Below are positions 44,294 through 61,937 of a stretch of DNA of 64,000 nt, one piece after another. Both the position numbers and the translations under genes were made by a program. The notes under the pieces are model-generated. The model worked only from the letters and a program-made list of their open reading frames with translations. It had not been told where the DNA came from and did not search any database. Origin of the DNA: Sphingobium yanoikuyae (lineage in GTDB: Bacteria; Pseudomonadota; Alphaproteobacteria; Sphingomonadales; Sphingomonadaceae); the NCBI RefSeq assembly GCF_034424525.1, contig NZ_CP139979.1, forward strand, positions 4,239,501-4,303,500, given 5' to 3'. The first letter of the stretch is position 1, and each line of letters begins with the position of its first letter.

Positions 44294-44315
44294 GGAAAGG
44301 TGGCGGAGACGGAGG
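44294..44315. repeat. Left attachment site (attL core)
   Basis: A 22-base sequence (GGAAAGGTGGCGGAGACGGA plus GG) identical to 61916-61937. It copies the 3' end of tRNA-Ser with CCA plus seven downstream bases. On the element side it continues into GGGAATCGAACCC, a degenerate T-arm-like sequence. Confidence 0.88.
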
Positions 44316-44449
44316 CCGCCGGGAATCGAACCCACCGAGTCTCATGACGTGCCATTTTGTGTAGGTTTTGATTGGTCGGTGCGGAACAAATGTGCAACGT
44401 TGTGCCGTGATGTGCCGCCATAGCCCGCGCCATTAGTGGGGAAAACAGT

Positions 44450-45676
44450 ATGAACGAACAAAACGAGAAGGCCCGCGAGCGCCGGACCAAGCCGGCTACG
44501 GTGACCGAGGTTAATTCGCTGGCTCGCAAGCCTGGTCGGCACTCGATCGGCGAAAGTCTCATCCTGTGCGTCAGTTCGTCAGGCGCAAAAAGTTGGGTGG
44601 CGAGGGTTCGCGATTCGGACGGGCGCCGCCGCGACATGGGGCTTGGGCCTTTCGCGGACTTGACCCTGGCTGAAGCGCGCGAGAAGGCGCGGACGCTGCG
44701 CAAAGCAGGCCGCGACGGTCTGCCGATTCTTACCCGCGCCGAGCGCCGGAAGGCCCTGCGCAAGGTGCCGACGTTCAAGGAGGCGGCGGAAACCGTCTAT
44801 GAGCGCGACAAGGGCGAGTGGAAAAACGAGAAGCACGGCGCCCAGTGGATCAAGACGCTGCGCGACTATGCTTTCCCCTCGCTGGGAAGCCTTTCCATCA
44901 ACCGGATCGAGGAAAACCATGTCGCCGAAGCGTTGGCCCCGATCTGGCGCGAGAAGCCGGAAACGGCGCGGAGGGTGCTGCAGCGCGTCCTGACGGTCAT
45001 GGATTGGGGCCATGCATTCAAGCACTGCACCGTCCAGCTCAACCGCAACGGCATCCGCAAACTGCTAGGCAAGCAGGACGCGGCCAAGGGCAACTTCGCT
45101 GCCATGCCTTATGGCGAGGTTTCGGGGCTCGTCGCCACGCTCCGGGCCAGGGAGACGATCGGCAACATGGCGCTTGAGTTCCTGATCCTCACCGCAGCGC
45201 GATCGGGCGAGGTGCGCGGCGCGACATGGGATGAGTTTGATCTCGAGAGCAAGCTATGGATCATCCCGGCCGAGCGGATGAAGGCAAAGAAGGAGCATAA
45301 CGTCCCGCTCTGCGACCGGGCGCTGGCGCTGGTCAGGCGCGCGCAGGAGATCGCTTCCAGCGAGACAGTCGTGTTTCCGGGGCTACGCGGCAACCCCATG
45401 TCGGACGCCACGATGGCGAAGGCTCTGCGAGAGGCCGGCGTCGCCAAGGAGGCCGGAACGGTTCACGGCATGCGATCGGCGTTCCGCGATTGGGTGTCGG
45501 AAGAAACCAGTTTCCCCGGCGATGTGGCAGAGGCTGCTCTGGCCCACACCATCAAGAACAAGGTGGAGGCCGCCTATCGCCGCGGCAAGCTGTTGGCTAA
45601 GCGCCGGGAGATGATGGCGGCATGGGAGCGGCATTGCCAGGGTAGCAATAGTGTCATCCGAATGGTGGCCGGATGA
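44450..45676 (+). CDS. P4-type tyrosine integrase
   Basis: 408 residues. N-terminal DUF4102 arm-binding domain (about 15-105, LILCVSSSGAKSWVARVRDSD), core-binding SAM-like domain (about 107-205), catalytic domain to the end. Catalytic residues visible: R251 in TAARSGEVRG, H339 and R342 in HGMRSAFRDW, H366 in ALAHTIKNK, nucleophile Y376 in AAYRRGK. Directed away from attL, as usual. Overlaps the next gene by four bases. Confidence 0.95.
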   Translation: MNEQNEKARERRTKPATVTEVNSLARKPGRHSIGESLILCVSSSGAKSWVARVRDSDGRRRDMGLGPFADLTLAEAREKARTLRKAGRDGLPILTRAERRKALRKVPTFKEAAETVYERDKGEWKNEKHGAQWIKTLRDYAFPSLGSLSINRIEENHVAEALAPIWREKPETARRVLQRVLTVMDWGHAFKHCTVQLNRNGIRKLLGKQDAAKGNFAAMPYGEVSGLVATLRARETIGNMALEFLILTAARSGEVRGATWDEFDLESKLWIIPAERMKAKKEHNVPLCDRALALVRRAQEIASSETVVFPGLRGNPMSDATMAKALREAGVAKEAGTVHGMRSAFRDWVSEETSFPGDVAEAALAHTIKNKVEAAYRRGKLLAKRREMMAAWERHCQGSNSVIRMVAG

Positions 45677-46320
45677 CCAAGATTTATGAGAGCGATGACT
45701 GGCATGACTCGCCGGGGGGATGGCGTAGTACGATCAAGAACGTTGTCCCTGAGCGTTGGATATCGGTTGTTGAAGGCCTGGCCCGATGCAAGGCAGCATG
45801 TCCCGATTATCCGCAAGTCGCTCATGACATGTTGGTTTGGCGGCTTCAGAACTGTCTCATCGCCGCGAAGGCCGCGGTTATCGAGGTCAGGCACGGGGAG
45901 GATGATGACATAGGTCGCTACCACCATATACCGGTCATTGAAGAATGGAGTGATCAAGCTTGGGCATCGATCAATTCTGAAGTTTGGGCCGCGGGCAACA
46001 TTCGCACCATAGAAAACCGCTTCGGCACCTTACGGCGGATCCAGTACAAAGACGTTGCTATTGATCGGGACGGACTAGATGCGCTGGTGAAGCATTTGGC
46101 CGGCCTCATACCAACTGCGACGAAACCAAAGCCGAAGCCTCCCTCTGAATTTGTATGGTCTGCTTGGGTGCAGGAGCGCAAAGCGCGAGGGGCGCTTCCT
46201 AGCGTGGAGGCGCTGCTGGAAGAGGCTCAAATAGCCTTCCCCGAAAATAAGATCACTCAGGCCGCTGCACGTCGAGCATTTGGCGGCGGGAGACCCGGCC
46301 CTCGCAAACACATTCCGTGA
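45673..46320 (+). CDS. Hypothetical protein translationally coupled to the integrase
   Basis: 215 residues, beginning MTKIYESDDWHDSPGGW, rich in Trp and charged residues. No membrane segment. A Pro/Lys linker (TKPKPKPPSEF) separates an N-terminal ~150-residue part from a ~50-residue C-terminal part (VQERKARGALPSVEALLEEA) that could be a small DNA-binding helix bundle. I recognise no family. The ATGA overlap suggests a role linked to integration or excision. Confidence 0.65.
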   Translation: MTKIYESDDWHDSPGGWRSTIKNVVPERWISVVEGLARCKAACPDYPQVAHDMLVWRLQNCLIAAKAAVIEVRHGEDDDIGRYHHIPVIEEWSDQAWASINSEVWAAGNIRTIENRFGTLRRIQYKDVAIDRDGLDALVKHLAGLIPTATKPKPKPPSEFVWSAWVQERKARGALPSVEALLEEAQIAFPENKITQAAARRAFGGGRPGPRKHIP

Positions 46321-46421
46321 CAATCTGAATTCCGTCGACAACGGATTTTGCCCACCGAATTGGACGACGTGACTGTCCCTCCATAGCCCAAGGCATCCCG
46401 CCAAGGGCCGATGGAGGAATT

Positions 46422-46592
46422 ATGGCAATCGCGCCCGTTACCTGCAGCGTCGATGAAGCTGTCAATGCGCTCGGCATCGGCCGGTCCACTTTCTATCGCC
46501 ACATGCGCGCCGGCATGATCGACACGGTGCGTGTCGGCGGTCGCCGCCTGGTCAAGATCGAGAGCGTGAAGCGCCTCGTGGAAGCGGCATGA
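46422..46592 (+). CDS. Excisionase/AlpA-like helix-turn-helix protein
   Basis: 56 residues, MAIAPVTCSVDEAVNALGIG then RSTFYRHMRAGMIDTVRVGG and a C-terminal helix. This is the MerR-type winged HTH of Xis/AlpA excisionases (DUF-type helix_turn_helix_17). Strong GGAGG ribosome site. Likely the recombination directionality factor or activator of the integrase. Confidence 0.78.
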   Translation: MAIAPVTCSVDEAVNALGIGRSTFYRHMRAGMIDTVRVGGRRLVKIESVKRLVEAA

Positions 46593-46598
46593 CCGCCC

Positions 46599-46880
46599 AT
46601 GCCTCAGAACCGAAACGCCCCCGGCCATAAGGCCGAAGGCGCTCTTAATCACTGTGGAGGTGACAAGAGCGCTTATAGCACGGCAGCGTCCGCTCAGACC
46701 ATCGAAATCGCCCATGAGGCTTTCGGCTGTGGCTTCGATGTCGTGGTGAAGCCCCAGATCGTGCCTGACAATCAGGGTTGGGAATTCCGCGAGCATGCGC
46801 AGGCGATGGCGTTCGCGCAGTCGCTACACCAGCAGCATGGTTGGGCCATAGTCGACCGGACGGGAGGCGCGGATGCATAG
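46599..46880 (+). CDS. Hypothetical protein of the element
   Basis: 93 residues. The N-terminal third is low-complexity; the middle (IEIAHEAFGCGFDVVVKPQIV) alternates strands and the end is helical (EHAQAMAFAQSLHQQHGWAI). No known family. Overlaps the next gene by eight bases. Start not certain because no ribosome site stands out. Confidence 0.55.
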   Translation: MPQNRNAPGHKAEGALNHCGGDKSAYSTAASAQTIEIAHEAFGCGFDVVVKPQIVPDNQGWEFREHAQAMAFAQSLHQQHGWAIVDRTGGADA

Positions 46881-47139
46881 CGCCGTAATCAGCCGGCGCA
46901 GCAATGTTTTGCGCGTCGCTTTCCCGATCGTTCGTGCTTGGCTCGTTTACCGTGCTGCCCGGTTGGATGGCGAGATCGACGGTTGGATGGGCCACACCAT
47001 CGGCATCCCGGCGCCTGACGACTATGTGACGCCGATCGCTTCCTATGATCTGGTGATGAGCGCGGTTTCCTCGTCGGATAACCGGATGGGCCTGCCGATC
47101 ATCGTCAGCGATTATAAGCAGGGCGAGGTGGCGGCATGA
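46873..47139 (+). CDS. Hypothetical protein of the element
   Basis: 88 residues, MHSAVISRRSNVLRVAFPIVRAW... with no signal peptide and no recognised motif. Overlaps the upstream gene by eight bases and the downstream gene by four, so it belongs to the early operon leading to the replication gene. Confidence 0.55.
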   Translation: MHSAVISRRSNVLRVAFPIVRAWLVYRAARLDGEIDGWMGHTIGIPAPDDYVTPIASYDLVMSAVSSSDNRMGLPIIVSDYKQGEVAA

Positions 47140-47546
47140 CGATCAGCGCCGATAACGCCGCCCGCCTCTCCAAGATCGCGGCCCGGCTTGAATCCGCACA
47201 TGATGGCGAGATCCTAGCGGCCGCCCGCATGCTGGTGAAGCAGCTTGGCGGACATGGCCTCCGCGTTGCCGACGTGATCGAGCGGGGCATTGCGGGCGGA
47301 AAGCCTGGTAATTTCGATTGGTCGAACACATTCCAGGCGAACCCATCCCCACCGCCCGCCACACATCGGGTCAAGATCGACGCTATGTTGCGTGATCCGA
47401 AGTTCATGGGCGAATACTTGACCCGGCGCTCGGTCGATCGGTTGCGCAGCCTATATCGCGCCGACATTCTCGATCCGATCAACATGTCTTGGGTGGATGG
47501 CCTCATGGAAAAGGCACGCGATCTGCGCGCCGGGAGGGCCGCATGA
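47136..47546 (+). CDS. Hypothetical protein of the element (early region)
   Basis: 136 residues. The N-terminal helical segment (DNAARLSKIAARLESAHDGE, then ILAAARMLVKQLGGHGL) resembles the DUF2786-like start seen in other phage early genes. The C-terminal part is DPKFMGEYLTRRSVDRLRSL. Function unknown. Four-base overlap with the preceding gene. Confidence 0.6.
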   Translation: MTISADNAARLSKIAARLESAHDGEILAAARMLVKQLGGHGLRVADVIERGIAGGKPGNFDWSNTFQANPSPPPATHRVKIDAMLRDPKFMGEYLTRRSVDRLRSLYRADILDPINMSWVDGLMEKARDLRAGRAA

Positions 47547-47635
47547 TCGCCCTGTTGGAGTTTTCCTACGGGTATCGCGCTGTGCTTTGCCTCATTGTCA
47601 TGGACCGTGACGCACGCATCGGGAGGGCCAAATGA
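47543..47635 (+). CDS. Possible 30-aa small protein
   Basis: 30 codons (MIALLEFSYGYRAVLCLIVM then DRDARIGRAK) fitted between the previous stop and the replication gene with ATGA overlaps on both sides. GGGAGGG precedes the start, and the same GGGAGGGCC sequence recurs before the next gene. Such tight packing argues for translation, but the peptide has no recognisable features. Confidence 0.4.
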   Translation: MIALLEFSYGYRAVLCLIVMDRDARIGRAK

Positions 47636-49662
47636 CCCTCGCGCAGGACATCACCAAGCGCTTCAATGGCGACTGGCACGGTGATTATGGGGCTTTCCCG
47701 ACGCCGGGCCACAGCCCGAGCGATCGCGGCACGACCGTGAAGGATGATCCCGGCGCTCCTGACGGCGTGCTGATCAACTCCTTCAACGGCGGCGATGCGA
47801 TCGCGATCAAAGACCAGTGCCGCGAATGGGGTATCCTTCCCAGCCGCGACGCCGATCAAATCCGCAGCCGCTCGACCTGGCGGGTGACCGGCACGTTCGA
47901 ATATGTCGATGAGGACGGCACAGTCCTTTACCGGACGCAGCGCCGGGAGAAGGCAGGCGAGCGCAAGAAGTTCGCCGCTGAGCGGCTCAACGGCACGGAA
48001 TGGGCGGGCGGCATCAAAGGCATCAGGCGCGTTCTGTACCGGCTGCCGGACATCCTTGCCGCGCGGGCCGATGAACCGGTCTATCTGGTCGAGGGCGAGC
48101 GGAAGGCCGACAAGCTGGCGTCATGGGGCCTGATCGGAACTGCGGTAGCGTTCGGGTCCAATGGCTGGCTCTCGTCCTATGCTGATGCGCTGGCCGGCCG
48201 CGCCGTTATCATTCTGCCCGACAATGACGATGTGGGTCGTACCTTTGCCGAGAAGGCAGCCGCAGACCTGCAGGGGGCCGGTTGTTCTGTTCGTGTGATC
48301 GACCTTCCCGGCCTGCCGCCCAAGGGCGATATCATGGACTGGACCGGTAGCGCTGACGATTTGCGCGCGCTGGTCGAGAAGGTGCCAGCGCCCGCGGCAG
48401 AGACATTCGCCGTGGCCGATCTCGGAGCATGGGCGGGTATCCAGCCGACGCCCAAAGCGTTCATCATGGCGGGCTTCGTACCGGCTCGGGAGTTGACCCT
48501 AGCGACCGGTGCCGGCGGAGCGAACAAATCGACCTTCGGCCAGCAATTGGCGACGTGCTGCGCCGCGGGCGTTCCTATGCTGGGCATCGATGTCATGCAG
48601 GGCCCAGCCCTCTACATCACCGCGGAGGATGACGACGACCGTCTGCACTGGATGCAGACGCACATATGCCGTGCGCTGGCGGTTGATATGGCCGGCATGG
48701 CGGGTAAGCTTCACCTCGTCTCCCTGCGCGGACGGTTGGGCAATGAGCTGGCGACGTTCGACGCAGAGGGCAAGTTGCGCCCGGCGCCGTCGTTCCAGCT
48801 TCTCAAGGCGACGATCGAGCAGACCGGCTCAAGCCTAGTCGTGCTGGACAATGCCGCGCACCTGTTCGCTGGCAACGAGAACGACCGCCAGCAGGTCACC
48901 GCGTTCGTAAACCTGCTCTATAGCCTATGCCGCGATCTCGGGGTGACGATCATACTGGTCGCGCACTCCAACAAGGCGGGCGACAGCTATAGCGGCTCTA
49001 CCGCCTGGCTTAACGCCGTGCGCTCGCAGATCGTTCTGCAGCGGCCGGAAGGGGCAATCGATCCCGACGAACGCCTGCTGACACTCGGCAAGGCCAACTA
49101 TGCCCGCCAGGGCGAGGAACTTCGCTTTCGCTGGCATGAGTTCGCGCTACGGCTCGATCGGGAACTGCCGGATGATACTCGGGCGCAGTTGGCTGACGCT
49201 GTGGCGTCGGCCGGCGCCAATGCTGCCTTTCTGGAATGCCTGCGCGCCCGTGCCGCCCAAGGCGAGGGACGCGGCGTGGGCCCGAACACCGGCCCGAACT
49301 ATGCCCCATCGCAATTCGAGGGGATGCCGGAGGCCAAGGGCTTCACCCGCATGGCGCTCAAGGCGGCAATGGATCGCCTTTTCCACCTCGGCCGGATCGA
49401 AACCTACCAGTTCGAGAACAAGGGAAAGGGGCGTCACGTCACACTGTTGAGAGAGCTTCCCGAACCTCCCCGAACGGCTCCCCGAACGGCTCCCGAACAC
49501 TCTTCCCGAACTCCCCCGAACGACACCCGAACGCACCCCCCACACACTCCCTATACTACGTATAGGGGCGCGGCCTCTCAGGCCGCCGCGCCCCAAGACG
49601 ATGGGCTGGATGAAAGCGGCGACATCATCGGGTGGAATGACAAATCTCATGGAGGCCGCTGA
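47632..49662 (+). CDS. Toprim-domain primase/RepA-like ATPase, element replication protein
   Basis: 676 residues. The N-terminal ~100 residues precede a Toprim domain (about 150-230) with VYLVEGERKADKL (Glu) and VIILPDNDD (Asp pair). A RecA-fold AAA_25 ATPase follows (about 275-510) with Walker A ATGAGGANKST and Walker B SLVVLDNAAHLF, then a C-terminal winged-helix-like part and a low-complexity tail. Combines priming and helicase functions for element DNA. Its 3' third contains nine CCCGAAC heptamers and an inverted repeat, a candidate origin. Confidence 0.85.
   Translation: MTLAQDITKRFNGDWHGDYGAFPTPGHSPSDRGTTVKDDPGAPDGVLINSFNGGDAIAIKDQCREWGILPSRDADQIRSRSTWRVTGTFEYVDEDGTVLYRTQRREKAGERKKFAAERLNGTEWAGGIKGIRRVLYRLPDILAARADEPVYLVEGERKADKLASWGLIGTAVAFGSNGWLSSYADALAGRAVIILPDNDDVGRTFAEKAAADLQGAGCSVRVIDLPGLPPKGDIMDWTGSADDLRALVEKVPAPAAETFAVADLGAWAGIQPTPKAFIMAGFVPARELTLATGAGGANKSTFGQQLATCCAAGVPMLGIDVMQGPALYITAEDDDDRLHWMQTHICRALAVDMAGMAGKLHLVSLRGRLGNELATFDAEGKLRPAPSFQLLKATIEQTGSSLVVLDNAAHLFAGNENDRQQVTAFVNLLYSLCRDLGVTIILVAHSNKAGDSYSGSTAWLNAVRSQIVLQRPEGAIDPDERLLTLGKANYARQGEELRFRWHEFALRLDRELPDDTRAQLADAVASAGANAAFLECLRARAAQGEGRGVGPNTGPNYAPSQFEGMPEAKGFTRMALKAAMDRLFHLGRIETYQFENKGKGRHVTLLRELPEPPRTAPRTAPEHSSRTPPNDTRTHPPHTPYTTYRGAASQAAAPQDDGLDESGDIIGWNDKSHGGR
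49281..49532 (+). repeat. CCCGAAC iterons within the replication gene
   Basis: Nine exact CCCGAAC heptamers: 49281, 49293, then 49459, 49469, 49481, 49492, 49505, 49515 and 49526. Spacing in the main array is 10-13 bases (mean 11). They fall in all three codon frames (encoding P-E, R-T or P-N), so the DNA word and not the protein is being kept. Confidence 0.85.
49549..49567. repeat. Inverted repeat following the iterons
   Basis: CCCTATAC-TAC-GTATAGGG, a perfect 8-bp palindrome with a 3-base spacer and AT-rich centre, 16 bases after the last iteron. Could be a melting site, nick site or terminator-like stem of the origin. Confidence 0.65.
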
Positions 49663-49663
49663 T

Positions 49664-50449
49664 ATGCCGAGGAAGAAAGCCGCTACCAAAGCTGAACCTG
49701 AACTTGCTCGCGGCACGAAAATTGCCAATCTTCGAGCTTCAGGCCGTCTCATCGATAAGGTGGAGAAAGGCGGCGAGCGCGTCATGCTCAACGTTCGCAG
49801 CACGGGGAATAACCAGACAACTCGCGAACCGCTCGAAGGCATGACCGATCAGCAACTGACGATGCGTCTGGCCGATGCCATGGGCACGACGAGCCCGGAG
49901 TTCATCGATGCCACGCTTGTCAACTTGCTGACCGTGTTCGACGCCCCGACCGATCGACGGGCTACTCGGGAGATCAACGCGGCGCTCGCAGTTCTCGACG
50001 GCATGAAGCCGGAAAACGAAGTGGAGGCGATGCTGGTGACCCAAATGGTCGCCACGAACGATGCTGCAATGAAATGCCTCGCAGCGATCAGCAAAGGCCT
50101 CCACCCCGAGATGTGGGGCAACATGTCGGTGAAGCTTTTGCGGACCTTCACCGGTCAGGCAGAAGCTCTGGCCAAGTTGCGCCGCAAGGGCGAGCAGACT
50201 GTTCGGGTCGTTCATGTCCATCCCGGCGGCCAGGCCGTCGTTGGCGACGTTCACAACCATTCCGGCCAGGGGAGGAGGGGGCAACATTCAGAAAATGGGG
50301 GTCAATCAGATGCAGCCGATAATGCTAATGAACGCGAAGCGCTGCCTAGCCCAAACCCGATCGGGGAAGCCGTGCCAATCCCCAGCAGTGGCCGGCAGGA
50401 AGCGGTGCCGAATGCACGGCGGGACCAACCCCGGCGCCCCGATAGGTAA
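49664..50449 (+). CDS. Phage-type hypothetical protein
   Basis: 261 residues from the ATG at 49664 (GGAGG nine bases upstream; upstream ATGs overlap the replication gene). N-terminal basic PRKKAATKAEPE, then a helical middle (VEAMLVTQMVATNDAAMKCL) and RTFTGQAEALAKLRRKGEQT, VRVVHVHPGGQAVVGDV. The last ~50 codons overlap the following gene in another frame. Similar proteins precede the HGG-motif gene in alphaproteobacterial prophages. Function unknown. Confidence 0.7.
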   Translation: MPRKKAATKAEPELARGTKIANLRASGRLIDKVEKGGERVMLNVRSTGNNQTTREPLEGMTDQQLTMRLADAMGTTSPEFIDATLVNLLTVFDAPTDRRATREINAALAVLDGMKPENEVEAMLVTQMVATNDAAMKCLAAISKGLHPEMWGNMSVKLLRTFTGQAEALAKLRRKGEQTVRVVHVHPGGQAVVGDVHNHSGQGRRGQHSENGGQSDAADNANEREALPSPNPIGEAVPIPSSGRQEAVPNARRDQPRRPDR

Positions 50450-50546
50450 CCGCAACGCTCTCAAGCACGGATATTATTCGGCTGACGCGATCGCGATGCG
50501 CCGATTGGCAAAGGCAATGCGCCGCCAGTTGAGGGAGTTGGGGTGA
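50295..50546 (+). CDS. HGG-motif phage protein
   Basis: 83 residues. Cysteine-containing block CLAQTRSGKPCQSPAVAGRKRC followed by RMHGGTNPGAPIGNRNALKHG, the HGGxSTG-type motif found in small phage proteins usually encoded just upstream of the terminase. Here no terminase follows. The first 155 bases overlap the end of the upstream gene in a different frame. Starts at 50295 or 50310. Confidence 0.75.
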   Translation: MGVNQMQPIMLMNAKRCLAQTRSGKPCQSPAVAGRKRCRMHGGTNPGAPIGNRNALKHGYYSADAIAMRRLAKAMRRQLRELG

Positions 50547-50555
50547 ATTGGAGAA

Positions 50556-50795
50556 ATGAACATGACCGATCAGGAACGCGAGTTCGCCCGCCAAGCTGCC
50601 TACCTCGCGAACGTCCATCTTCTCGCGGATCGGGCGGAGGATATCGCCGGGATCAATGGCGCGTCGACGCTTCTGTTCAATGCAGCTCTAGCCTCGCTCA
50701 ATCGGATGCATGACATCGGCCATGCCATGACCATCGCGCGGATCTGGGCGGAGTCCCTGGAAGCGCAGCAAGCAACGCGCGAGGGGACACACTGA
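50556..50795 (+). CDS. Hypothetical protein of the element
   Basis: 79 residues, all-helical looking (TDQEREFARQAAYLANVHLL, ALASLNRMHDIGHAMTIARI). No known family. Ten bases after the HGG-motif gene, so probably the last gene of that operon. Confidence 0.6.
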   Translation: MNMTDQEREFARQAAYLANVHLLADRAEDIAGINGASTLLFNAALASLNRMHDIGHAMTIARIWAESLEAQQATREGTH

Positions 50796-51026
50796 CGGAA
50801 GATGTCGGCGTTCATCGGCCACGGCTGAAGTAGGCATAGATAGCCGTCCCGCAAAAGCGGGCCCAATGCGCGCAGGCGATGTTCGACCGTATCATTGAGA
50901 TTTAGCCGCTGCTAGGTTGGCAGGCTGGTGGGGAAACGCTTCAGTATGGAGCGAAATGCGCTGGGAATTGCCCATTAGCGAGAAAATCGAGGCAGAGGGT
51001 TTCTCCGCTTAACCAACGAACGTAAG
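50796..51026. other. Non-coding gap where terminase would be expected
   Basis: 231 bases with no reading frame of note. Contains the hairpin CCCGC-AAAA-GCGGG (50852-50865) without a U-tract. In typical prophages terminase and portal follow the HGG-motif gene; here this gap and a minus-strand cargo gene take their place. Confidence 0.5.
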
Positions 51027-51656
51027 CTATAGTCCCTTGCTACTCCCTGGGATCGGAAACTGAGATATTATCTGTCGATCTCCGTCGCGGAAGGTTCTCA
51101 GAGCCATGTCACTAGCAATCATTACGCTGCTAACGTACCATCCTGGATAATATACTTCTCGCCCATTTTTGTCTGAGCGCGGAGAAGCCTTATGTTCCTG
51201 ATAATAATTCCAGAAACTTTCGATTGCAGACTCTGATTGCCTTAACCGTGCTCGATGTCGAAAACTCAATCGCCGGCCGGTCGCCAGTGCTTCCTTTGTG
51301 ATGGTCATGCATTCCCAAGACGAAGATGCCAAATCATGGTAAGATCTCTGGAATTCTGGTGAATCATCGTCGTATTTGTCTTGAGATATCTGCATAACCG
51401 TTTTGGCCTTTGTATTCAGAACCTCGTACTCAGCAATCAACATCTGCAACTCAGAATGGAGTTCAATGCGTGCCGTTCGATCAGCGAGCCAAGCTGCACC
51501 TGCAACTGTCGTGGCCGCGCCGATTAGGGCGCCCATGAACGACAACAAGGCTTCTTGCGAAGCTCCAAACTTGATCATTGCAACGGCTGATACACCAACT
51601 GCAGCCGCAGCGGCACCGACCGATATCCCCTCAATCGCAAGATCCCAATTCTTCAT
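51027..51656 (-). CDS. Cargo gene: two-helix membrane protein with cytoplasmic domain
   Basis: 209 residues, AT-richer than its neighbours and on the opposite strand. Two membrane helices (about 8-30 and 36-58) separated by a short turn, then a long charged, probably helical domain (AEYEVLNTKAKTVMQISQ, WECMTITKEALATGRRL). No known family. Position, strand and base composition are those of a cargo (moron) gene, for example for exclusion or defence, but nothing in the sequence proves that. Confidence 0.65.
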   Translation of the reverse strand: MKNWDLAIEGISVGAAAAAVGVSAVAMIKFGASQEALLSFMGALIGAATTVAGAAWLADRTARIELHSELQMLIAEYEVLNTKAKTVMQISQDKYDDDSPEFQRSYHDLASSSWECMTITKEALATGRRLSFRHRARLRQSESAIESFWNYYQEHKASPRSDKNGREVYYPGWYVSSVMIASDMALRTFRDGDRQIISQFPIPGSSKGL

Positions 51657-51823
51657 TTCGCACCTGCAAATGAGTTTCTTCGCAGGAATATAGCTGCCCG
51701 ATGGCGTGAGGGAAGTCGCGCTGAGGGGTATAAACCCCGCCCCCTGAAAACCTCATGCTCCTGACAACTGGCGATCCCGCCAGCCGCGCCGCCCTCGTTT
51801 TCTGGGGCCAAGGAGCAAGGCAG

Positions 51824-52573
51824 ATGCCTTTGACGTTTCACGATCGCGCACCGCTTGAGAAGGTGCGCCGCCTGGCCGATGGGCGAATTGCCGCCGTCGC
51901 CAAATTTGCCCGCAGCGGATGCTACACCTATTCCGGCGCGGAGGTCGGTCGTCCCGATCTTGGCACGGTGACCGTCTATCGCCCGGAAGATGAGGTTTTC
52001 TCCGACGATGCGATGGCCAGTTTTGCTCACAAGGCAATCACCCTCGATCACCCGAGCGAGGGCGTAACTGCCGCCAACTGGAAATCGGTCAGCGTCGGCT
52101 TCACGGAAGGTCGCGTCGCCCGCGATGGCGGTTTCATCGAAATTCCGCTGATGCTTGCCGATGCCTCCGCCGTGGCTGCCTATGACAGCGGCCGGGCGCG
52201 GGAACTGTCCGCTGGCTATTCGTGCGAACTGGTGTGGGGTGATGGCGTCGCGCCGGATGGAACGCCTTTCCAGGCCAAGCAGACACGGATTCGCGGGAAT
52301 CACATCGCTCAGGTGCCCGCCGGCCGCGCGGGCAGCGATTGTCGGATCGGAGACAGCATGACGAACGACGCCAACGCCACCACGCAATCGATCCGAGACG
52401 CAGCCTTTGGCAAGTTCCGGCTGAGCGACAGCCAGAAGGCGACCATCGACGCGCGCGCCGCCGCCGAGATCGCTTCGATCGAAAACGATCCGCGCAAAGC
52501 CTGGCAGCAGGATGATGGAGTTCGGTCCAGCAAAGCCGTTCGTGACGCAGCTCTCGCCGCTCGCTACCGCTAA
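51824..52573 (+). CDS. DUF2213 phage protein (prohead protease-like)
   Basis: 249 residues from the ATG at 51824 (AGGAG upstream). The DUF2213 core is clear: ARSGCYTYSGAEVGRPDLG, VTVYRPEDEVFSDDAMASFAHKAITLDHP, then ARELSAGYSCELVWGDG and IRGNHIAQVPAGRAGSDCRI. The family is placed between portal and major capsid genes and is thought to be a head-maturation protease. After about residue 165 there is a short helical tail (KATIDARAAAEIASIEND) where longer members carry a scaffold-like region, so it may be internally shortened. Confidence 0.75.
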   Translation: MPLTFHDRAPLEKVRRLADGRIAAVAKFARSGCYTYSGAEVGRPDLGTVTVYRPEDEVFSDDAMASFAHKAITLDHPSEGVTAANWKSVSVGFTEGRVARDGGFIEIPLMLADASAVAAYDSGRARELSAGYSCELVWGDGVAPDGTPFQAKQTRIRGNHIAQVPAGRAGSDCRIGDSMTNDANATTQSIRDAAFGKFRLSDSQKATIDARAAAEIASIENDPRKAWQQDDGVRSSKAVRDAALAARYR

Positions 52574-52584
52574 GGATATTTCAC

Positions 52585-53439
52585 ATGGCAAAACCTCTCA
52601 ACGAGCGCATCGCAAGCGCCCGGGCGACGGATCGCGTCACCATCACCGACCTTGAAGCCATCATCGCCGAAGCCACCATCGAGCGTGACCGTTTCGCCGG
52701 CATCGTCAGCCAGGCTACTGCAGATTCGATCCGCTTCGAATTAAGCGAGAACGAGCGCGACGAGGCTGCTCAGAAGGCCGAGCGCGCCAAGCGCAACAGC
52801 TTCGCGATGTCGGCCGCGGTCGATGAATTGGCGGCCAAACTGACCGCAAAGCGCGCCAGCGAGGAACAGCGAGCCCGCGCGGCGGAGAAGGCGGCTGCAA
52901 TCGCCGAACGCGATGCCCTAGCTGAGCGCATCCGCACCGAATGGCCGGCAGCAGAAGCCCTGATGGTCGAACTGCTATGGGCGATCAAGGAAAGCGACGC
53001 CCGCCTTCATGCGCTGCGCCTGCCCGAAGCCAGCGCGGAAGCGGTCGCGCGAGACTTTCCCGGCAACTTCATGCGGAACGGCGTGCAAGTTCGCCGCCTG
53101 CAGGATGCGCGCCTGCCGTCGTTTGTCGAGCCATGCGATTATGCCTGGCCAAAGCCCCAGCGGATCAATCCCGATCTGGGCCGCGCCCAATACTTAGCTG
53201 ATAAGGAGCGCATGCGCGCCGAGAACGCGCGCTGGCAGCGCTATCTCGTGACGCCGCCCGCGGGCAACCGCGAGCCGATCCCGCTGGACATGCGCAATGG
53301 CCCCGGCGTGGCCCTCGACCTGCCGGTGATCGGCAACATGACGGAGGAAGGCGTAGCGGACGCCCGCGAGGCCGGCTGTGACGTTCAGCCGGTCAGCGCC
53401 AATGTCTCAATCGGCCTGCCAAGCGCGCAGTTCATTTGA
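52585..53439 (+). CDS. Coiled-coil phage-type hypothetical protein
   Basis: 284 residues. The first ~130 residues are a charged, Ala/Glu-rich helix (LEAIIAEATIERDRFAGIV, RARAAEKAAAIAERDALAER). The C-terminal half is more globular, with LPSFVEPCDYAWPKPQRI and NREPIPLDMRNGPGVALDLP. Resembles proteins found between head and tail genes of sphingomonad and Caulobacter prophages; function unknown. Confidence 0.65.
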   Translation: MAKPLNERIASARATDRVTITDLEAIIAEATIERDRFAGIVSQATADSIRFELSENERDEAAQKAERAKRNSFAMSAAVDELAAKLTAKRASEEQRARAAEKAAAIAERDALAERIRTEWPAAEALMVELLWAIKESDARLHALRLPEASAEAVARDFPGNFMRNGVQVRRLQDARLPSFVEPCDYAWPKPQRINPDLGRAQYLADKERMRAENARWQRYLVTPPAGNREPIPLDMRNGPGVALDLPVIGNMTEEGVADAREAGCDVQPVSANVSIGLPSAQFI

Positions 53440-53450
53440 GGAGGAAAGCC

Positions 53451-53615
53451 ATGATCAAGAAACTGCGTGCGCTGATCCAGACGAACACCACCAAGAAGGC
53501 TCTCGCTGCGGAACAGGGCGCCTCAGATGGCATCGATCGATCGTCTCCGGCCTACCGCCTCGGCAAGACCATCCACGAGATCGGCGACGACCTCGCAAAG
53601 CGGGGGGCTGCCTGA
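53451..53615 (+). CDS. Small phage-type protein (54 aa)
   Basis: 54 residues, MIKKLRALIQTNTTKKALAA... ending DDLAKRGAA, behind a GAGGAGGAAA ribosome site. Helical, no family recognised. Its stop overlaps the start of the next gene (TGATG). Confidence 0.6.
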   Translation: MIKKLRALIQTNTTKKALAAEQGASDGIDRSSPAYRLGKTIHEIGDDLAKRGAA

Positions 53616-54061
53616 TGGCCAAGATCACCCACCTCCCCGCCCAGCCGTTCGGCGATGGTGTCTATCGCATGGAACTCGGCCCCGATCAGCTCAGGGAACT
53701 GGAGACGGGCCTGAAGATCGAAAAATGCGGCACCTGCATGGTGGCGACGAAGGTTAACCCCCATCCCAAGCCGATCTATGAAACCTTCGCCGGACTGATG
53801 TCGGGCCGCATCGAGACGGAGGGCAGGACAATCGGCAATGCCTTCCAATCCGGCGCTTCAATGATCGACATCTGCAACATCAACCGCCTGGGCCTTATCG
53901 GCGGCGGCATGAGCGATGCTGCCGCGGCGAAGCTGGTTCGCGAGAATGAGCCGCCGCATCGACCGCTGAATGACCTGTGGGAGATCGCGGCAGCGCTGGT
54001 CTATGCCACGCTGTGCGGCGTCGAAGAGGATGCGCCCGCCCCGGCGCCGGCAGATGGCTGA
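53615..54061 (+). CDS. Tail assembly chaperone-like protein
   Basis: 148 residues. FGDGVYRMELGPDQLRELET near the N-terminus resembles the GTA-gp10/Phage_TAC_11 group, which acts between tail tube and tape measure. A later segment (RPLNDLWEIAAALVYATLCG) fits the same family's helical end. Its place three genes ahead of the tape measure agrees. The assignment is by pattern, not a firm domain hit. Confidence 0.55.
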   Translation: MAKITHLPAQPFGDGVYRMELGPDQLRELETGLKIEKCGTCMVATKVNPHPKPIYETFAGLMSGRIETEGRTIGNAFQSGASMIDICNINRLGLIGGGMSDAAAAKLVRENEPPHRPLNDLWEIAAALVYATLCGVEEDAPAPAPADG

Positions 54062-54383
54062 TATGGCGTTCATCTCCGCGCCGGCTGGTCATGGACGCGG
54101 AGAGGCAGGAGGGGCCGTCACCCCCCTCCTGCTTTCCCCTTCAGTCAACCTGACGGAAGCCCGCCGCATCGCCGCAGCCTATCCGCCTGAGGCCCGCTGT
54201 GTGCCGCGCGCTGAGCGGGAAACCTATCTGACCGAAACCCAGCAGCTTGCATGGTTGCTCAGGTTCCATCCGAAAGAGGCGGCGGAGGTGATGTCCGCCT
54301 TCAATGCGGCGTCGCCCCAGCCTAGCCGGTCGGATCGGCGCCGCCCTCGCGCCCTTCCCCACCTGGATAACCACCATGGCTAA
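54054..54383 (+). CDS. Hypothetical protein between tail chaperone and gp10-like genes
   Basis: 109 residues if started at 54054, 106 at 54063. The core LTEARRIAAAYPPEARCVPR, then LTETQQLAWLLRFHPKEAAE suggests two helices. Overlaps both neighbours by eight bases. No family recognised. May correspond to the second product of the tail chaperone region. Confidence 0.5.
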   Translation: MADMAFISAPAGHGRGEAGGAVTPLLLSPSVNLTEARRIAAAYPPEARCVPRAERETYLTETQQLAWLLRFHPKEAAEVMSAFNAASPQPSRSDRRRPRALPHLDNHHG

Positions 54384-54795
54384 CGTCCGCGGCCATCAAA
54401 AGCTGGTGAGACAGTTCAAGGCCATTGCCGACGAGAGCATGGTTCGGGCCGTTGGCGTAGCGATGTTCGCGGCTGGTGAGGTGATCGAGGACGCGGCCAA
54501 GGGCAGCATTATGGCCGGCAGCATCTCCGGCAAGAATCATGTGCCGTCCAAGCCTGGCGAGCCACCCAACAATGACACGCATTTCTTGCACAACAACATC
54601 GAGACGATCCAGCGCGCGCCGCTGCTGGTCGAGGTGTCCTCGAATGCCCCATACAGCGTCCCGCTTGAGTTCGGCACGTCGAAGATGGCCGCGCGCCCAT
54701 TCATGGGTCCGGCCGCCCGCGCCGGTAAGCAGGAGGCGCTTTCTCTCATCAATCAGGCAATCAAAGCCCAGCTTCGGAAGGCGGTGAAGAAATGA
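54376..54795 (+). CDS. HK97 gp10-like phage protein
   Basis: 139 residues. Helical N-terminus (KLVRQFKAIADESMVRAVG), a loop region, then the family hallmark PLEFGTSKMAARPFMGPA and a C-terminal helix. HK97-gp10 proteins complete the head-tail or tail terminator region. Coupled to the tape measure gene by an ATGA overlap. Confidence 0.82.
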   Translation: MANVRGHQKLVRQFKAIADESMVRAVGVAMFAAGEVIEDAAKGSIMAGSISGKNHVPSKPGEPPNNDTHFLHNNIETIQRAPLLVEVSSNAPYSVPLEFGTSKMAARPFMGPAARAGKQEALSLINQAIKAQLRKAVKK

Positions 54796-56597
54796 GCGTT
54801 GTCGCAGAGGATCTGGTTGTCCGCATTCGCGCCGAAATGGCCGACCTCGACGCCAAGATGGCGCGCGCGGCGACAGTCACGACGAACACCACCCGGACGA
54901 TCGAGAAGTCTACTGATAAGGCGTCGAATGCTGGCCGCAATATGGGGCGCACGCTGATTGATGTGGGCGGGCAACTCGCCGGCGGGCAATCCCCGTTCAA
55001 CGTCTTGGCACAACAGGGGCCTGTCGCTGCTGATGCCTTGGCTGAGGTTGGCGGCAAAGCGGCCAACGTTGCTGCGTTCTTCAGCGGTCCATGGGGCGTT
55101 GCGATTATGGCCGCTGCTTCTGTGGTAGGAGAACTGATCGGGCAAATGTTGGAAGCAGGCGAAGCAGCCGAAAAGACCAAGCCGAAAATCGACAATCTCA
55201 CCAACGCCTATGCCAACCTCGCGGCGAGCCTCGGCAAGATCGACCCCGCCGGCGCCGACGCGCTCGCGCGGGCGGGGATCAAGCTCGCCACCGATCGGCG
55301 TGACCTTGCCAAGGCGACGGATGCGCTGAGCGCCGCAGAAGCCCGGCTGGCGGCCTCCCAGCGTGTCGATCCAAAGGGGCGCGGCTCAGCGCCGGCGCAA
55401 CGCGATGTTGTCGAGGCACAGGCCCGCGTTAAGGCACTGCAAGATGAGATCCAGACCGGCCAGAATCTGGTGAGCCTCGGCGAAAGCCGGTTCAAGCAGT
55501 CCCAGGCACTCGCGGCGGCAGAGACGAAGGTCGACAAGGCGACGCGCGGCCGGGCCGGTTCATCGGTCGCAGCGGCCGACAGCACGGATCGGGAGAAGAA
55601 AGCGCAGGGCGAGCTGGTGGCGCTCCTTGAGCGAGTGGCGGGCAAATATGACCCGGTGCGTGCCGCAGCGATCGAAACCGGGAAAGCCTTGGCGGACATC
55701 GACAGGCTGGAGATGAACGGCATCATCAGCGCCGCCGATGCGCTGGCATACAAGCTGCAGCTCGCACGCGATCAGGCGGTAGCCGTGGCCGATGCAATGT
55801 GGAAGCTGCAGGAACAGCGCTGGCTCGATGTGGGCTTCGACAAGGGCGACTTCGACGGATCGAACATCACCAAGTCGATTAATGACGCGCTGGAGCAGCG
55901 CCAGAAAGCGGCCGACGATGAAGAGGCGGCGTTGATGGCCTCGAATGAGCGGGTCGCGCAGGATTTCCAGGACCGGCAGCAGGCCCAGATCTACTACCTT
56001 GCCAACCTCTATGAGGACTTGTTCCAGGGCGGCAATGGCAACATCTGGCGGAACTTCAAACAGATGGGTTTTCGCGCGGTGGCGGAGGTTCTGGCCCGCC
56101 TCACGGTGTCGAACTCGGGCAGCAGTGGCGGCGGTTTCAACTTCGACTCAATCGCGGCTGCGATCGGCGGCCTGTTCAAGAAAAGCGGCGGCGGCGAGAC
56201 GGGGACCGGCGTTGGCTTCTCGGCTGGTGGCTATACAGGTAACGGCCCGCGCAACGAGGTTGCTGGTGTCGTCCACCGTGGCGAATATGTCATCCCCGCC
56301 GATGTCGTCAGCAAGGTTGGTGTCGGCAATCTCCAGGCGCTCGGCAGCGCTTCCGCACCAATCAGGGGCGCCATATCCGCCCTGCCCAAGTCCATCCCGG
56401 CGCGCACGGAAACGCAGGTCGTCACGGTCGTCGTGCAGGAGGGCGCCCTGTTCAAGGCAAAGGTGGCGGGCATCAGCAAGGCAGTCGCCGCACCGATCGC
56501 GCAGACCTATGCCACGCAAGCCGCCGCCGGCATGGGGCAGGCTGTCATGAAGGCAGTCCCCTCGCGCCTGGCTCAGTATGGCCGCGACGGCATCTGA
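54792..56597 (+). CDS. Short phage tail tape measure protein
   Basis: 601 residues. N-terminal VVRIRAEMADLDAKMARA (tape-measure start), then helical Ala-rich sequence with hydrophobic patch FFSGPWGVAIMAAASVVGEL (about 92-112) and long coiled-coil segments. The Gly-rich C-terminus has GGYTG and VAGVVHRGEYVIPADVV, typical of tape-measure ends. About half the length of most lambdoid tape measures, implying a short tail if it is used. No tail tube or baseplate gene is beside it. Confidence 0.82.
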   Translation: MSVVAEDLVVRIRAEMADLDAKMARAATVTTNTTRTIEKSTDKASNAGRNMGRTLIDVGGQLAGGQSPFNVLAQQGPVAADALAEVGGKAANVAAFFSGPWGVAIMAAASVVGELIGQMLEAGEAAEKTKPKIDNLTNAYANLAASLGKIDPAGADALARAGIKLATDRRDLAKATDALSAAEARLAASQRVDPKGRGSAPAQRDVVEAQARVKALQDEIQTGQNLVSLGESRFKQSQALAAAETKVDKATRGRAGSSVAAADSTDREKKAQGELVALLERVAGKYDPVRAAAIETGKALADIDRLEMNGIISAADALAYKLQLARDQAVAVADAMWKLQEQRWLDVGFDKGDFDGSNITKSINDALEQRQKAADDEEAALMASNERVAQDFQDRQQAQIYYLANLYEDLFQGGNGNIWRNFKQMGFRAVAEVLARLTVSNSGSSGGGFNFDSIAAAIGGLFKKSGGGETGTGVGFSAGGYTGNGPRNEVAGVVHRGEYVIPADVVSKVGVGNLQALGSASAPIRGAISALPKSIPARTETQVVTVVVQEGALFKAKVAGISKAVAAPIAQTYATQAAAGMGQAVMKAVPSRLAQYGRDGI

Positions 56598-56995
56598 TGT
56601 ATGGCTTGGCCGGCCCGCTGATTGACGATGTGCGCGCCCGGCTCACGGCTTCGTCCGCATTCCGGACGATGATGCCGCCGGCCGGGATGGAGGGGCGCGG
56701 CGTTCCGCACCTTCGCCTCTCATCCCCCGATGAGCGTGTGATCCGCGGCGGCGCGCTCAATCGACTGGAGATCGACCTGGCGTTGAGTGTGGTCGCCCCC
56801 GTTCGACTGGAGGCGTACCGGATCGGCCGGGCGGCGATGGCGGCGATCAGCCCTCGAAAATATCGCGTTCGAAATGGCCGATCGATGGCGGCCCTTATCC
56901 TGCGATGGCGGAGCGACCATCTCGCGCAGGAAGCGGATGAGGACGGGCTTTGGCATTATGCGCAGGTGTTCGTTGCGCAGGGCTTGGCGACCTAG
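56597..56995 (+). CDS. Phage tail-associated protein, possibly DUF3168-like
   Basis: 132 residues. GPLIDDVRARLTASSAFRTM and LRLSSPDERVIRGGALNRLE resemble DUF3168 tail-completion proteins, though those usually precede the tape measure. Start overlaps the tape measure stop (TGATG). Ends convergent with the lipoprotein gene. Confidence 0.5.
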   Translation: MYGLAGPLIDDVRARLTASSAFRTMMPPAGMEGRGVPHLRLSSPDERVIRGGALNRLEIDLALSVVAPVRLEAYRIGRAAMAAISPRKYRVRNGRSMAALILRWRSDHLAQEADEDGLWHYAQVFVAQGLAT

Positions 56996-57357
56996 GTCGG
57001 GTCGGTTTCATTAATGAGGTTCAGCAGGGAATCATCGATCGATCCGCTGCGCTTGCCCAGGCATCGATCGATGCCGATCATGAATTCCTTCATGCCGAGA
57101 TCTTCGGGCAGCCAGGCCTTGCCGTTTTCGTAGAAGAACGGGGCCGAGCCGGCATAGGCGCCCAATGCGTTTTTGGCGTTGATGCGTCCCATCACCATCC
57201 CCGGCTTGTCGCATTCCCGCACGTCGGTGAATTTGGCAGAGGACGGATCAGGGGCGCGATCGGCGGCTACTTCCTTGGCCTTGGCGACCAGCGCGCTATC
57301 GCTATCCTGCGGGCTGCATCCAGCCAGCAATGCCAATGCGATGATTGTCCGCTTCAT
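56992..57357 (-). CDS. Small lipoprotein of the element
   Basis: 121 residues from the ATG at 57357: MKRTIIALALLAGCSPQDSD, a lipoprotein signal with lipobox LLAGC. The mature part (DPSSAKFTDVRECDKPGMVM, SAPFFYENGKAWLPEDLG) is a small globular domain of unknown function. Lipoproteins on prophages are sometimes superinfection-exclusion factors, which is only an analogy here. Confidence 0.68.
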   Translation of the reverse strand: MKRTIIALALLAGCSPQDSDSALVAKAKEVAADRAPDPSSAKFTDVRECDKPGMVMGRINAKNALGAYAGSAPFFYENGKAWLPEDLGMKEFMIGIDRCLGKRSGSIDDSLLNLINETDPT

Positions 57358-57420
57358 TCCGCCTCCCCGCGCTCGATCGCGGCAGGGTGGCACCCGACGA
57401 AGGCGAGAGCAAGTTATGGC

Positions 57421-57699
57421 TCAGGGTTTCGGCGTTTCGTTCTGGCTGATCAAGGTCGCCATGATCGAACATAGCTCGTCAATCTTTTGAGACTGCGCCG
57501 CCATCATAGCTTCGATCGCGCCGCGATTATCAAGGGGGGCCAGCATCTGCGCATGCAGATATTCGACATCACCCTTTGACAAGATGCCCCTGCCAGCCAT
57601 TGCAGCGGCCAGAGCGAAGACGCCGTTGAAAGCAGACAGAGCCAAGGAAATTGCGCTCTGAGCGGCCTCCTCCGGGCTACCTTGGAATTGATCTTTCAT
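57421..57699 (-). CDS. Hypothetical helical protein of the element
   Basis: 92 residues. A hydrophobic Ala-rich helix (AAQSAISLALSAFNGVFALA) and a second amphipathic helix (AIEAMMAAQSQKIDELCSIM). No signal peptide or known family. Same strand as the lipoprotein gene, 63 bases upstream of it. Confidence 0.55.
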   Translation of the reverse strand: MKDQFQGSPEEAAQSAISLALSAFNGVFALAAAMAGRGILSKGDVEYLHAQMLAPLDNRGAIEAMMAAQSQKIDELCSIMATLISQNETPKP

Positions 57700-57902
57700 C
57701 TTCGTCGCTCCCCCATGAATGGGCGATCAAGCGCTCCTCGTCCCGGCAGATCGCCGTCCGAAACACTGCCACTTTAGCCCCCGCCTGTTTTGCCGCTATA
57801 TCATTATCAGGCCGATCGGCTGCCTATGATCAAAATCACACTTGGCTGCCGCCCCCTGGCACAACCATATAGTCGGTATGCGCGGCTGGCTGAGGGATGA
57901 GC

Positions 57903-58382
57903 ATGTCGGATGATCATTGGGATAGTATGAGCGTGGAATTTCGCCTCACGAATGCGAGCGTCGTGGCCATGTTCGAGAATTGCTCGGCGATCAGTGAGAT
58001 CGGTCTCTCGCTGACCGTTCAAGAGGGGCGCCTGCTAACCTTCTATGGTCTGCCCGACGACGATGACGGGGATGATGACGCGACGACACTTGAATATAAG
58101 TGCATCATCACCGCTACCGGATCCAATTCGGAGAAGGTTGAGTCGCGCGAGGCGCGGATCAATGTCGACGGGACGCACGACAACGGGCGCCGGCTAACCA
58201 TCAAGGGGCATGGATGGGCCGGCCGAGATCAAGACGGCCTGCTTGAGCTGCTTTTCGATGAGCCGCCGACCATGGTGGTATATGATTACCCCATCGAATT
58301 CGAAGATGGCGGCGATGAGCGGGTTCACAAAGACAATGTGGTAGCCCTCAACCGCCCAGGTGGTTCACGCGGTGGGGAATAG
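57903..58382 (+). CDS. Acidic hypothetical protein of the element
   Basis: 159 residues, beta-rich N-terminal part (SVEFRLTNASVVAMFENC), an acidic loop GLPDDDDGDDDATT, then alternating strands. Start at 57903 or two codons earlier. AT-richer codon use than host genes. No family recognised. Confidence 0.5.
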   Translation: MSDDHWDSMSVEFRLTNASVVAMFENCSAISEIGLSLTVQEGRLLTFYGLPDDDDGDDDATTLEYKCIITATGSNSEKVESREARINVDGTHDNGRRLTIKGHGWAGRDQDGLLELLFDEPPTMVVYDYPIEFEDGGDERVHKDNVVALNRPGGSRGGE

Positions 58383-59151
58383 GGATTCAGCGGCGGCGAA
58401 GCGCTGCTAGCGCTGGCCTCGCCGATCGCCCATCGGCGGACGGATGCTGTGCCAACGACCGGCAGTGTGACATTTCAGCCTAATGGCAAAAATATCGTCT
58501 CGTTCCCTTTTCGGACTCGTTGCAATTCGGCGTCTAGAGGAGTCTAAGGGTGACGGCCCGCCGCAAGGTGGTCTATACTATCCTACCCCGGGACTAGCGG
58601 GACGGATAAGACCGGCAGTGAGAGCTGACATGCTCCCATTTGCCGAACCGAAAGCGCCAGTAATTAATCACTGACACAGCCTTCGGCCACGCGCACGATA
58701 CACGCATCGACTTTCTCCTGTGGGTCCGGGGTAAAAGCCCCGGGCTCCGGGACGCCCCATGCGCCCCGCCTCGAAAGGACCAGGGGCATTGCAGAAGAAA
58801 GACGGCGGACCGTCGCGCTCAGTAATAAGCGGGATGTCAGGGGAGTCGAGAGGCTTCACCAATCATTTTGATTGGTTAATGAACGATTGACGGCAATTGT
58901 GGCTGCGAAAGCACAAATGGAGACTTCTTTATATAACGAAGGCTTTAAGTAGTTCGTCGCGTCCCTTGTGGAGCTTTCGGGCGACGGAGAGCTGCCGCCA
59001 TCAATCGTTCTAAGGTGCTAATCTCCCTCCGATATTCTCTCACCCCGCCCGGTTTGGCGATCGGTATCTGCGAGCGGCGAATACGCCGACCGATTGTCCT
59101 ACGTGGCTTGCTGATGTGCATTTATGACTTCCCGCGCGATGATGTGCTCAG
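58383..59151. other. Long non-coding region of the element
   Basis: 769 bases with no reading frame that combines a ribosome site with a protein-like sequence. Contains a hairpin CCGGGG-TAAAAG-CCCCGG near 58727-58745 and an AT-rich stretch 58860-58960. Could hold regulatory sites or an unrecognised RNA. I see nothing definite. Confidence 0.5.
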
Positions 59152-59912: not shown

Positions 59913-59916
59913 AATC

Positions 59917-59930
59917 TCGTGGTATCACGA
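59917..59930. promoter_or_regulatory. RHH operator 2 (upstream of the RHH gene)
   Basis: Second exact copy of TCGTGGTATCACGA, ending 18 bases upstream of the RHH start. Together with operator 1 it brackets the translation start and probably the promoter. Confidence 0.75.
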
Positions 59931-60004
59931 CAGCGACCTGAAGGAAAGGCGGCAACCTCTCCTCCAGGCCTGACCGCAAACCCTGTACTAGAGGGATTGA
60001 AGCT

Positions 60005-61178: not shown

Positions 61179-61179
61179 T

Positions 61180-61850: not shown

Positions 61851-61915
61851 TGGGCGGAATAGTGGGGAAGAAATACCGGCGGCAGAAAAAATGCCACCTT
61901 TTCAACGTTGTAGAA

Positions 61916-61937
61916 GGAAAGGTGGCGGAGACGGAGG
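61916..61937. repeat. Right attachment site (attR core)
   Basis: Exact copy of the 22-base left repeat. Bases 61923-61937 are the CCA end, discriminator, acceptor strand and first T-stem bases of the intact tRNA-Ser. Confidence 0.88.

Follow-up and report, generated by a model that had tools for sequence, protein, structure and literature searches.

The 3′ part of a replication gene in Sphingobium yanoikuyae contains nine exact copies of the heptamer CCCGAAC, raising the question of what function a short repeated DNA word may have inside a coding sequence. A first-pass annotation of the window (the whole 64,000-nt stretch analysed here) proposed that the copies are iterons, and that they form an origin lying within the Toprim-ATPase gene of the element itself. 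Comparison with relatives supports this proposal through array spacing that recurs across word classes and a word that is tied to the C-terminal domain; the array is therefore considered, with a probability of roughly four in five, to represent the iterons of an origin at the 3′ end of an initiator-helicase gene, where the C-terminal domain would bind the repeats, a RepA-type helicase would be loaded, and a CTA stem-loop would possibly be used for priming. Coordinates of the features are collected in Table 1.

Table 1. Features of the window, in window coordinates, and primase genes of related loci, in locus coordinates.
Feature	Position	Strand	Remarks
Direct repeat, left copy, 22 bp	44294..44315	+	probable attL
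Tyrosine integrase of the element	44450..45676	+	Pfam, PHROG
Replication gene, 676 aa	47632..49662	+	Pfam AAA_25 and Toprim_2; PHROG 239 primase/helicase; profile match to RSF1010 RepA (1g8y)
Toprim-like region	48052..48348	+	about residues 141-239; Pfam, PHROG, homologue alignment
RecA-like helicase ATPase	48442..49146	+	about residues 271-505; Pfam and 1g8y profile match
C-terminal domain	49174..49458	+	about residues 515-609; resembles a winged helix by eye only; candidate reader of the iterons; covaries with the word
Two further CCCGAAC copies	49281..49299	+	in C-terminal-domain codons (GPNTGPNYAP); probably not iterons
Seven putative CCCGAAC iterons	49459..49532	+	gaps 10, 12, 11, 13, 10, 11; codon shuffles and homologue spacing
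Stem-loop 1, CCCTATAC-TAC-GTATAGGG	49549..49567	+	CTA in loop; proposed priming site
GC-rich hairpin 2, GGGGCGCGGC...GCCGCGCCCC	49565..49594	+	3-nt overlap with stem-loop 1
Direct repeat, right copy, 22 bp	61916..61937	+	probable attR; 3′ end of tRNA-Ser(GCT), 61923-62014 (-)
Separate primase genes	L049:440-1462, L084:2790-3719, L055:461-1339, L057:404-1345		directly upstream of a helicase gene lacking fused Toprim

The 676-aa protein consists of an N-terminal Toprim-like region, a RecA-fold ATPase resembling that of RSF1010 RepA, a C-terminal domain, and an array-encoded tail. Toprim primases are defined by a catalytic Glu and a DxD motif; the window protein has both, as E154-G-E156 and D197-N-D199 are invariant in 21 aligned homologues, and its Toprim_2 match scores 24.6 bits against a cutoff of 22.1. 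A profile of 21 homologues matched 1g8y/1nlf/1olo (RSF1010 RepA) at E 1e-13 over query residues 271-505, with RSF1010 RepA being the only PDB sequence match at E ≤ 0.01; the ATPase is thus sequence-related to the RSF1010 RepA helicase family. The Toprim-like region, helicase, and C-terminal domain occupy one gene in the window, unlike the three polypeptides of IncQ. Pfam returned zero matches for the C-terminal-domain segment of the window, and when applied to the C-terminal domains of 20 members it gave a weak match to a SelB winged-helix model in one (E 0.029); a PDB search with the domain produced no convincing match, Hop2 chain 2mh2 being weak (E 0.24). No lambda O-type family is present among the Pfam or PHROG matches of the window protein, and the small ORFs adjoining the gene that were scanned against Pfam and PHROG gave no match, so that an unrecognised helper is possible.

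All nine copies of CCCGAAC were located where the first-pass annotation had placed them, and the codon phases it gave were reproduced (two copies in phase 0, four in phase 1, three in phase 2), as were the 10-13 spacing of the seven array copies and the perfect 8-bp inverted repeat that follows them. When synonymous codons were shuffled across the whole gene, the interval 49281-49567 contained 0.89 copies on average and 5 at most; with shuffling confined to the tail, the average was 1.56 and the highest count 7. Nine copies were reached in 0 of 20000 shuffles of either kind. Over the whole 64-kb window the count is mildly high (19 versus 10.98 expected, with at least 19 in 3 of 100 shuffles); it is the cluster, rather than the window-wide count, which stands out. 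The array is the sole site in the 5.53-Mb genome where three CCCGAAC copies occur with 2-6-base spacers. These short direct repeats, at near-helical spacing and within a predicted initiator gene, have the sequence features of an iteron origin. Separately, an 80-base scan found only one other place in the window with at least four copies of one 7-mer, a GCTGCTG run at 22521-22640.

The annotation had counted nine iterons, of which the seven in the array are retained; the copies at 49281 and 49293 are probably incidental, and the count was reduced on homologue evidence. The 49293 copy covers the PN codons of GPNYAP, a motif that also occurs in homologues whose words differ; the copy at 49281 encodes GPN where many homologues have GPS. 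Among loci in which a [GSAT]PNY[AY] motif was found, a comparison that bears on the 49293 copy alone, the PN codons read CCGAAC in two of five CCCGAAC-word loci (the window being one of the five) versus one of seven loci with other words.

The relatives were drawn from a protein search that gave 824 homologues among 8000 scored candidates, 120 of the 824 being listed. Homologue DNA was obtained for 20 loci from genome contigs and for 18 loci from viral contigs through an alignment query; viral contigs queried with a single protein gave no relative. At E 0.001, 31 of the 94 genomes searched within the genus contain a homologue, and at E 1e-60, 27 of 397 in the family do, the window's own genome being included in both; loci in the genus-level genomes are identical to ones on named Sphingobium contigs. 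Sixty-four regions were compared, the window among them, after removal of window fragments (L001-L005), six duplicates, loci with a match that stopped short of residue 440, and loci that gave no tblastn match at 1e-10. For the word set, arrays were required to have four or more exact 6-mers; 43 were used, taken from 47 listed arrays by dropping L077 (a near copy of L076), L097, L038, and L039; removal of L053 (a near copy of L045) and L029 left 41 for covariation, and the word strings were hand-curated from consensus sequences.

In 40 of the 64 regions, including the window, a 6-mer cluster is present that at most 1 of 100 Markov shuffles reached; 24 regions did not pass this test, among them L045, L053, L076, L078, and L089, which are nevertheless within the 43 arrays. 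The C-termini of the listed homologues (120 of 824) are encoded with differing repeated words in several frames; 37 of the 41 curated word strings end in AC. What recurs is the spacing: consecutive gaps of 12, 11, and 13 are found in 16 of 43 arrays (sites with at most one mismatch) with seven word strings, compared to a mean of 1.05 and a maximum of 7 arrays when gap order was shuffled in 20000 trials, and the longer order 12, 11, 13, 10, (10-13) is found in 9 of 43. The seven words amount to about four classes, the CCGAAC, GCACA[A/T]C, GGAAAC, and CCGATGAC types, since TCCGAAC/CCCGAAC, GCACATC/GCACAAC, and GGAAAC/CCGGAAAC are close pairs; shared descent may carry the 12-11-13 spacing between arrays. 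Arrays with periods of 10, 11, 12, and 23 are picked up by Tandem Repeats Finder at low scores, as would be expected had the repeats expanded by slippage, or arisen by chance, with no function; this is extremely improbable, as the spacers differ in both sequence and length, yet the 12-11-13 order recurs across word classes.

The repeats could alternatively be selected as protein, forming a disordered tail of PERT/PNT type, as most of the 43 homologue arrays are coding and low-complexity tails recur. Against this, 36 arrays have at least three exact in-frame sites, and these sites occupy three codon phases in 19 arrays, two in 16, and one in a single array, so that at least two phases are used in 35 of 36; synonymous shuffles also fail to recreate the window array. 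Furthermore, six arrays (L007, L055, L057, L076, L082, and L086) are located for the most part beyond the stop codon, which indicates that the constraint acts on DNA; L057 belongs to both groups. All seven exact CCCGAAC sites of L007 follow the stop, with gaps of 10, 12, 11, 13, 10, and 12, as do all five exact sites of L082, and in both the spacing is kept despite this position. The early stop is unlikely to be a sequencing error alone because four database proteins (P0095, P0102, P0114, and P0119) end at the same point. Selection for a protein tail is accordingly given next to no weight. The earlier claim of selection on the DNA word thus holds with respect to the word clusters, the mixed phases, and the arrays past the stop, but not for CCCGAAC itself: comparison of homologue 3′ ends indicates that the array and often its geometry persist, while the heptamer is not generally conserved and changes together with the C-terminal domain. 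Homologues keeping the residues while losing the heptamer, which the annotation had named as evidence against itself, were not observed, because the array-encoded tail changes along with the word.

The relation between word and protein was examined with partial Mantel tests on the 41 arrays, using residues 522-603 as the C-terminal domain; first runs used residues 522-622, which include array-encoded residues from 610, and the test was therefore repeated with these excluded. Word and C-terminal domain are correlated given the ATPase (r 0.446, p 0.0003), kinship being handled by the ATPase term only; word and ATPase are weakly correlated given the C-terminal domain (r 0.094, p 0.048). Likewise, 28 of 41 loci share a similar word (at least 0.85) with their nearest neighbour by C-terminal domain, compared to 14 of 41 for the nearest neighbour by ATPase and a random mean of 6.0 (maximum 13). 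Judged from these comparisons, the word is tied far more tightly to the adjacent C-terminal domain than to the ATPase; as the C-terminal domain and array are neighbours, joint transfer alone could give this covariation. The word correlates with the 3′ flank at r 0.18 (p 0.015, n = 28 loci), which is lower than with the C-terminal domain but not zero; the 3′ flank itself correlates with the ATPase at 0.40 and with the C-terminal domain, taken as residues 522-622, at 0.27.

Exchange of protein parts is also visible in pairs of homologues: among the 120 listed of 824, 87 of 7140 pairs are more than 85% identical in the ATPase and less than 50% identical in the C-terminal domain. Between the window protein (P0001) and P0005, identity is 95% over the N part, 98% over the ATPase, and 39% over the C-terminal domain; their tails differ and are followed by a nearly shared protein end. 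P0001 and P0004 are 68% identical in the N part and 99% in each of the other two parts, which points to exchange of the N part between homologues as well.

Past the array position, the motif C-TAAA/TATA/TAC-G gives 51 matches in 43 of 64 regions, and 36 of the 51, distributed over 36 regions, are flanked by four or more Watson-Crick pairs; 0 of 6 opposite-strand loops (CTTTAG and CGTAG) have as many. Four of the 36 paired matches are CTATAG, which is identical on both strands and therefore uninformative on orientation. The remaining 28 of 64 regions are without a strict CTA hairpin, a count that omits hairpins with other loop cores, namely TATAAATA and TTA (the latter in L009 and L095). Stem composition varies from AT-rich to GC-rich while the pairing is preserved: across 34 distinct matches with five flanking pairs each, the fraction of standard pairs is 0.71, versus 0.31 (maximum 0.48) with partners shuffled, so the stem-loop is maintained by compensating change. 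CTA and TTA are described as start trinucleotides of some Firmicute DnaG primases (PMC5204125); use of the CTA loop as a primase start is by this analogy a guess, no more.

The 22-bp direct repeats enclose about 17.6 kb (44294-61937) with the integrase near the left end, and the genes within include a head maturation protease, tail tube, neck, and tape measure by PHROG; none of the 19 window proteins scanned against PHROGs, a subset of the ORFs, matched a large terminase, portal, or major capsid protein. This region is a probable integrated element in which the phage structural genes are incomplete; it may be a satellite or a decayed prophage. In seven relatives with the tRNA-Ser region the left flank of the window was never adjacent to that region, the exceptions being 20- and 46-bp matches around the att core in two relatives; as no joined left flank was found, the attL/attR call derives from the 22-bp repeat itself.

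Two overlapping ORFs (49601-50449 and 50214-50546) follow the replication gene, the second having a partial small-terminase match (E 1e-6) and the first having none. Packaging genes often follow the array in relatives, with a large terminase gene downstream in L020 and L026 and a DUF5681 gene in L023; the array could therefore be a cos/pac-like packaging start bound by the small terminase. This is considered unlikely, as the word covaries with the C-terminal domain of the initiator itself; furthermore, among the ten nearest downstream proteins scanned, those of L006 (1), L009 (3), and L007 (1) had no match and that of L015 is a capsid protein, and the two annotated genes downstream in Rhizobium phage RHph_Y3_1 encode hypothetical proteins.

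As an origin, the array is hypothesized to function through the C-terminal domain, which is encoded just 5′ of it and would bind the heptamer; sites at a 10-13-bp pitch would seat several protomers side by side, and these would load the RSF1010-RepA-type helicase in place. The helicase ring would then unwind toward the hairpin and expose the downstream stem-loop, in which the CTA loop is a possible start site for either the Toprim region or a host primase; the element may still replicate by this route. Initiators often repress their own genes, and binding sites at helical pitch would also fit an operator for autoregulation or for a repressor; that the array is an operator and not an origin is nonetheless very unlikely, given that it is located at the 3′ end of the gene, not the promoter, and is accompanied at many loci, including the distant Rhizobium phage, by the helicase gene and often by a CTA-loop hairpin. 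An operator function would in any case be compatible with an origin and does not exclude it.

A broader model is offered tentatively and is considered less likely than not: the protein would be a replicase of Toprim, RepA-type helicase, and reader parts that are exchanged independently, with the reader travelling together with an array whose geometry is almost constant. The six sites spaced 12-11-13-10-11 may correspond to six subunits of a RepA-type ring, making the origin a template for ring assembly in which the word is free to change; the CTA/TTA loop would be a strand-oriented primase start, and the family would constitute a library of orthogonal reader-word pairs. RSF1010 RepA is a hexamer, and the six recurring sites equal its subunit number, though this match may be due to chance.

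The proposed arrangement has partial counterparts in known systems. Lambda O is not a helicase and is from a different protein family than the window initiator-helicase; P4 alpha resembles the window protein in uniting primase, helicase, and origin recognition in one protein, and differs from it in having another helicase class and iterons outside the gene. P4 alpha has a Toprim-type primase and is compared with pRN1 as an iteron-origin system (PMC4234260). In lambda, iterons inside the initiator gene O are translated as part of the protein (PMC7466680), and the window and most of the homologue arrays likewise have their putative iterons in coding sequence; in lambda the middle of O contains four iterons together with an AT-rich region, whereas in the window the 3′ end of the gene has seven short words and a hairpin with a CTA loop. 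RSF1010 has iterons and short stem-loops that are exposed by helicase and primed (PMC4234260), and the window is similar in its RepA-matching ATPase profile and in having putative iterons plus a stem-loop, which could possibly act as an ssi-like site in the RSF1010 fashion; however, RSF1010 has a separate iteron binder, helicase, and primase, while in the window there is one protein with putative iterons in its own gene. SaPI Rep and SCCmec Cch2 are self-loading helicases in which a C-terminal domain reads short iterons directly 3′ of the gene (PMC7581432). Those helicases are MCM-like or DUF927, Primase_Cterm/D5-type with iterons downstream of the gene, whereas the window has an AAA_25 helicase with putative iterons in frame; a conserved order of iteron spacing recurs in relatives of the window, and none is described for SaPI/SCCmec in the available text of PMC7581432. 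In PLE, the origin and the RepA origin-binding domain covary and are swapped as modules; its three ~30-bp semi-palindromic repeats are noncoding and its initiator is of RepA_N type, the window differing in all of these (PMC8263062). By analogy, the window arrangement may work like lambda O/ori, SaPI Rep/ori, and P4 alpha.

A literature search of open-licence papers found no published account of this replication-gene family. Its parts are known in kind; new are the way they are combined, a spacing that recurs although the words change, and the pairing of a RepA-type helicase with a putative in-gene origin. The previously unannotated gene tail of many sphingomonad elements becomes a testable origin, and the 3′ end of the AAA_25 helicase gene is suggested as a simple place to search for origins in such elements. 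As word and reader change together and the spacing often stays the same, the family provides many natural pairs for understanding word choice by initiators and the seating of ring helicases.

Some relatives have a helicase gene without the Toprim part; of 11 upstream proteins scanned, four match primases and are encoded directly 5′ of the helicase gene (Table 1), and seven gave no match. The primase/helicase of RHph_Y3_1, a named phage with a similar layout after this gene, is a distant relative at 29% identity; between its stop and the next annotated gene, GTTCCCA/TGGGAAC occurs nine times (40 shuffles gave at most 4) and is accompanied by a CTAAAG hairpin. In Wolbachia phage WO, eight TGGCAA/TTGCCA copies (L102:4216-4421; maximum 5 in 40 shuffles) flank and follow the stop (4231) of a RepA-like ATPase gene and are a possible origin array; no CTA hairpin of the kind sought is present. 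Microcystis Mae-JY30, Arthrobacter MellowYellow, and Microbacterium RubyRalph have no CTA hairpin and no clear array, the best 7-mer of MellowYellow occurring 4 times versus a maximum of 3 in 40 shuffles and its best 6-mer 4 times versus 6. In MT837765, which is unannotated, the sequence stops too close to the match for an array or hairpin to be visible. Two other distant viral relatives, L038 and L039, contain ACTGTC repeats and a GTCCCCCTATAAGGGGGAC stem-loop near the end of the gene (region coordinates 485-576).
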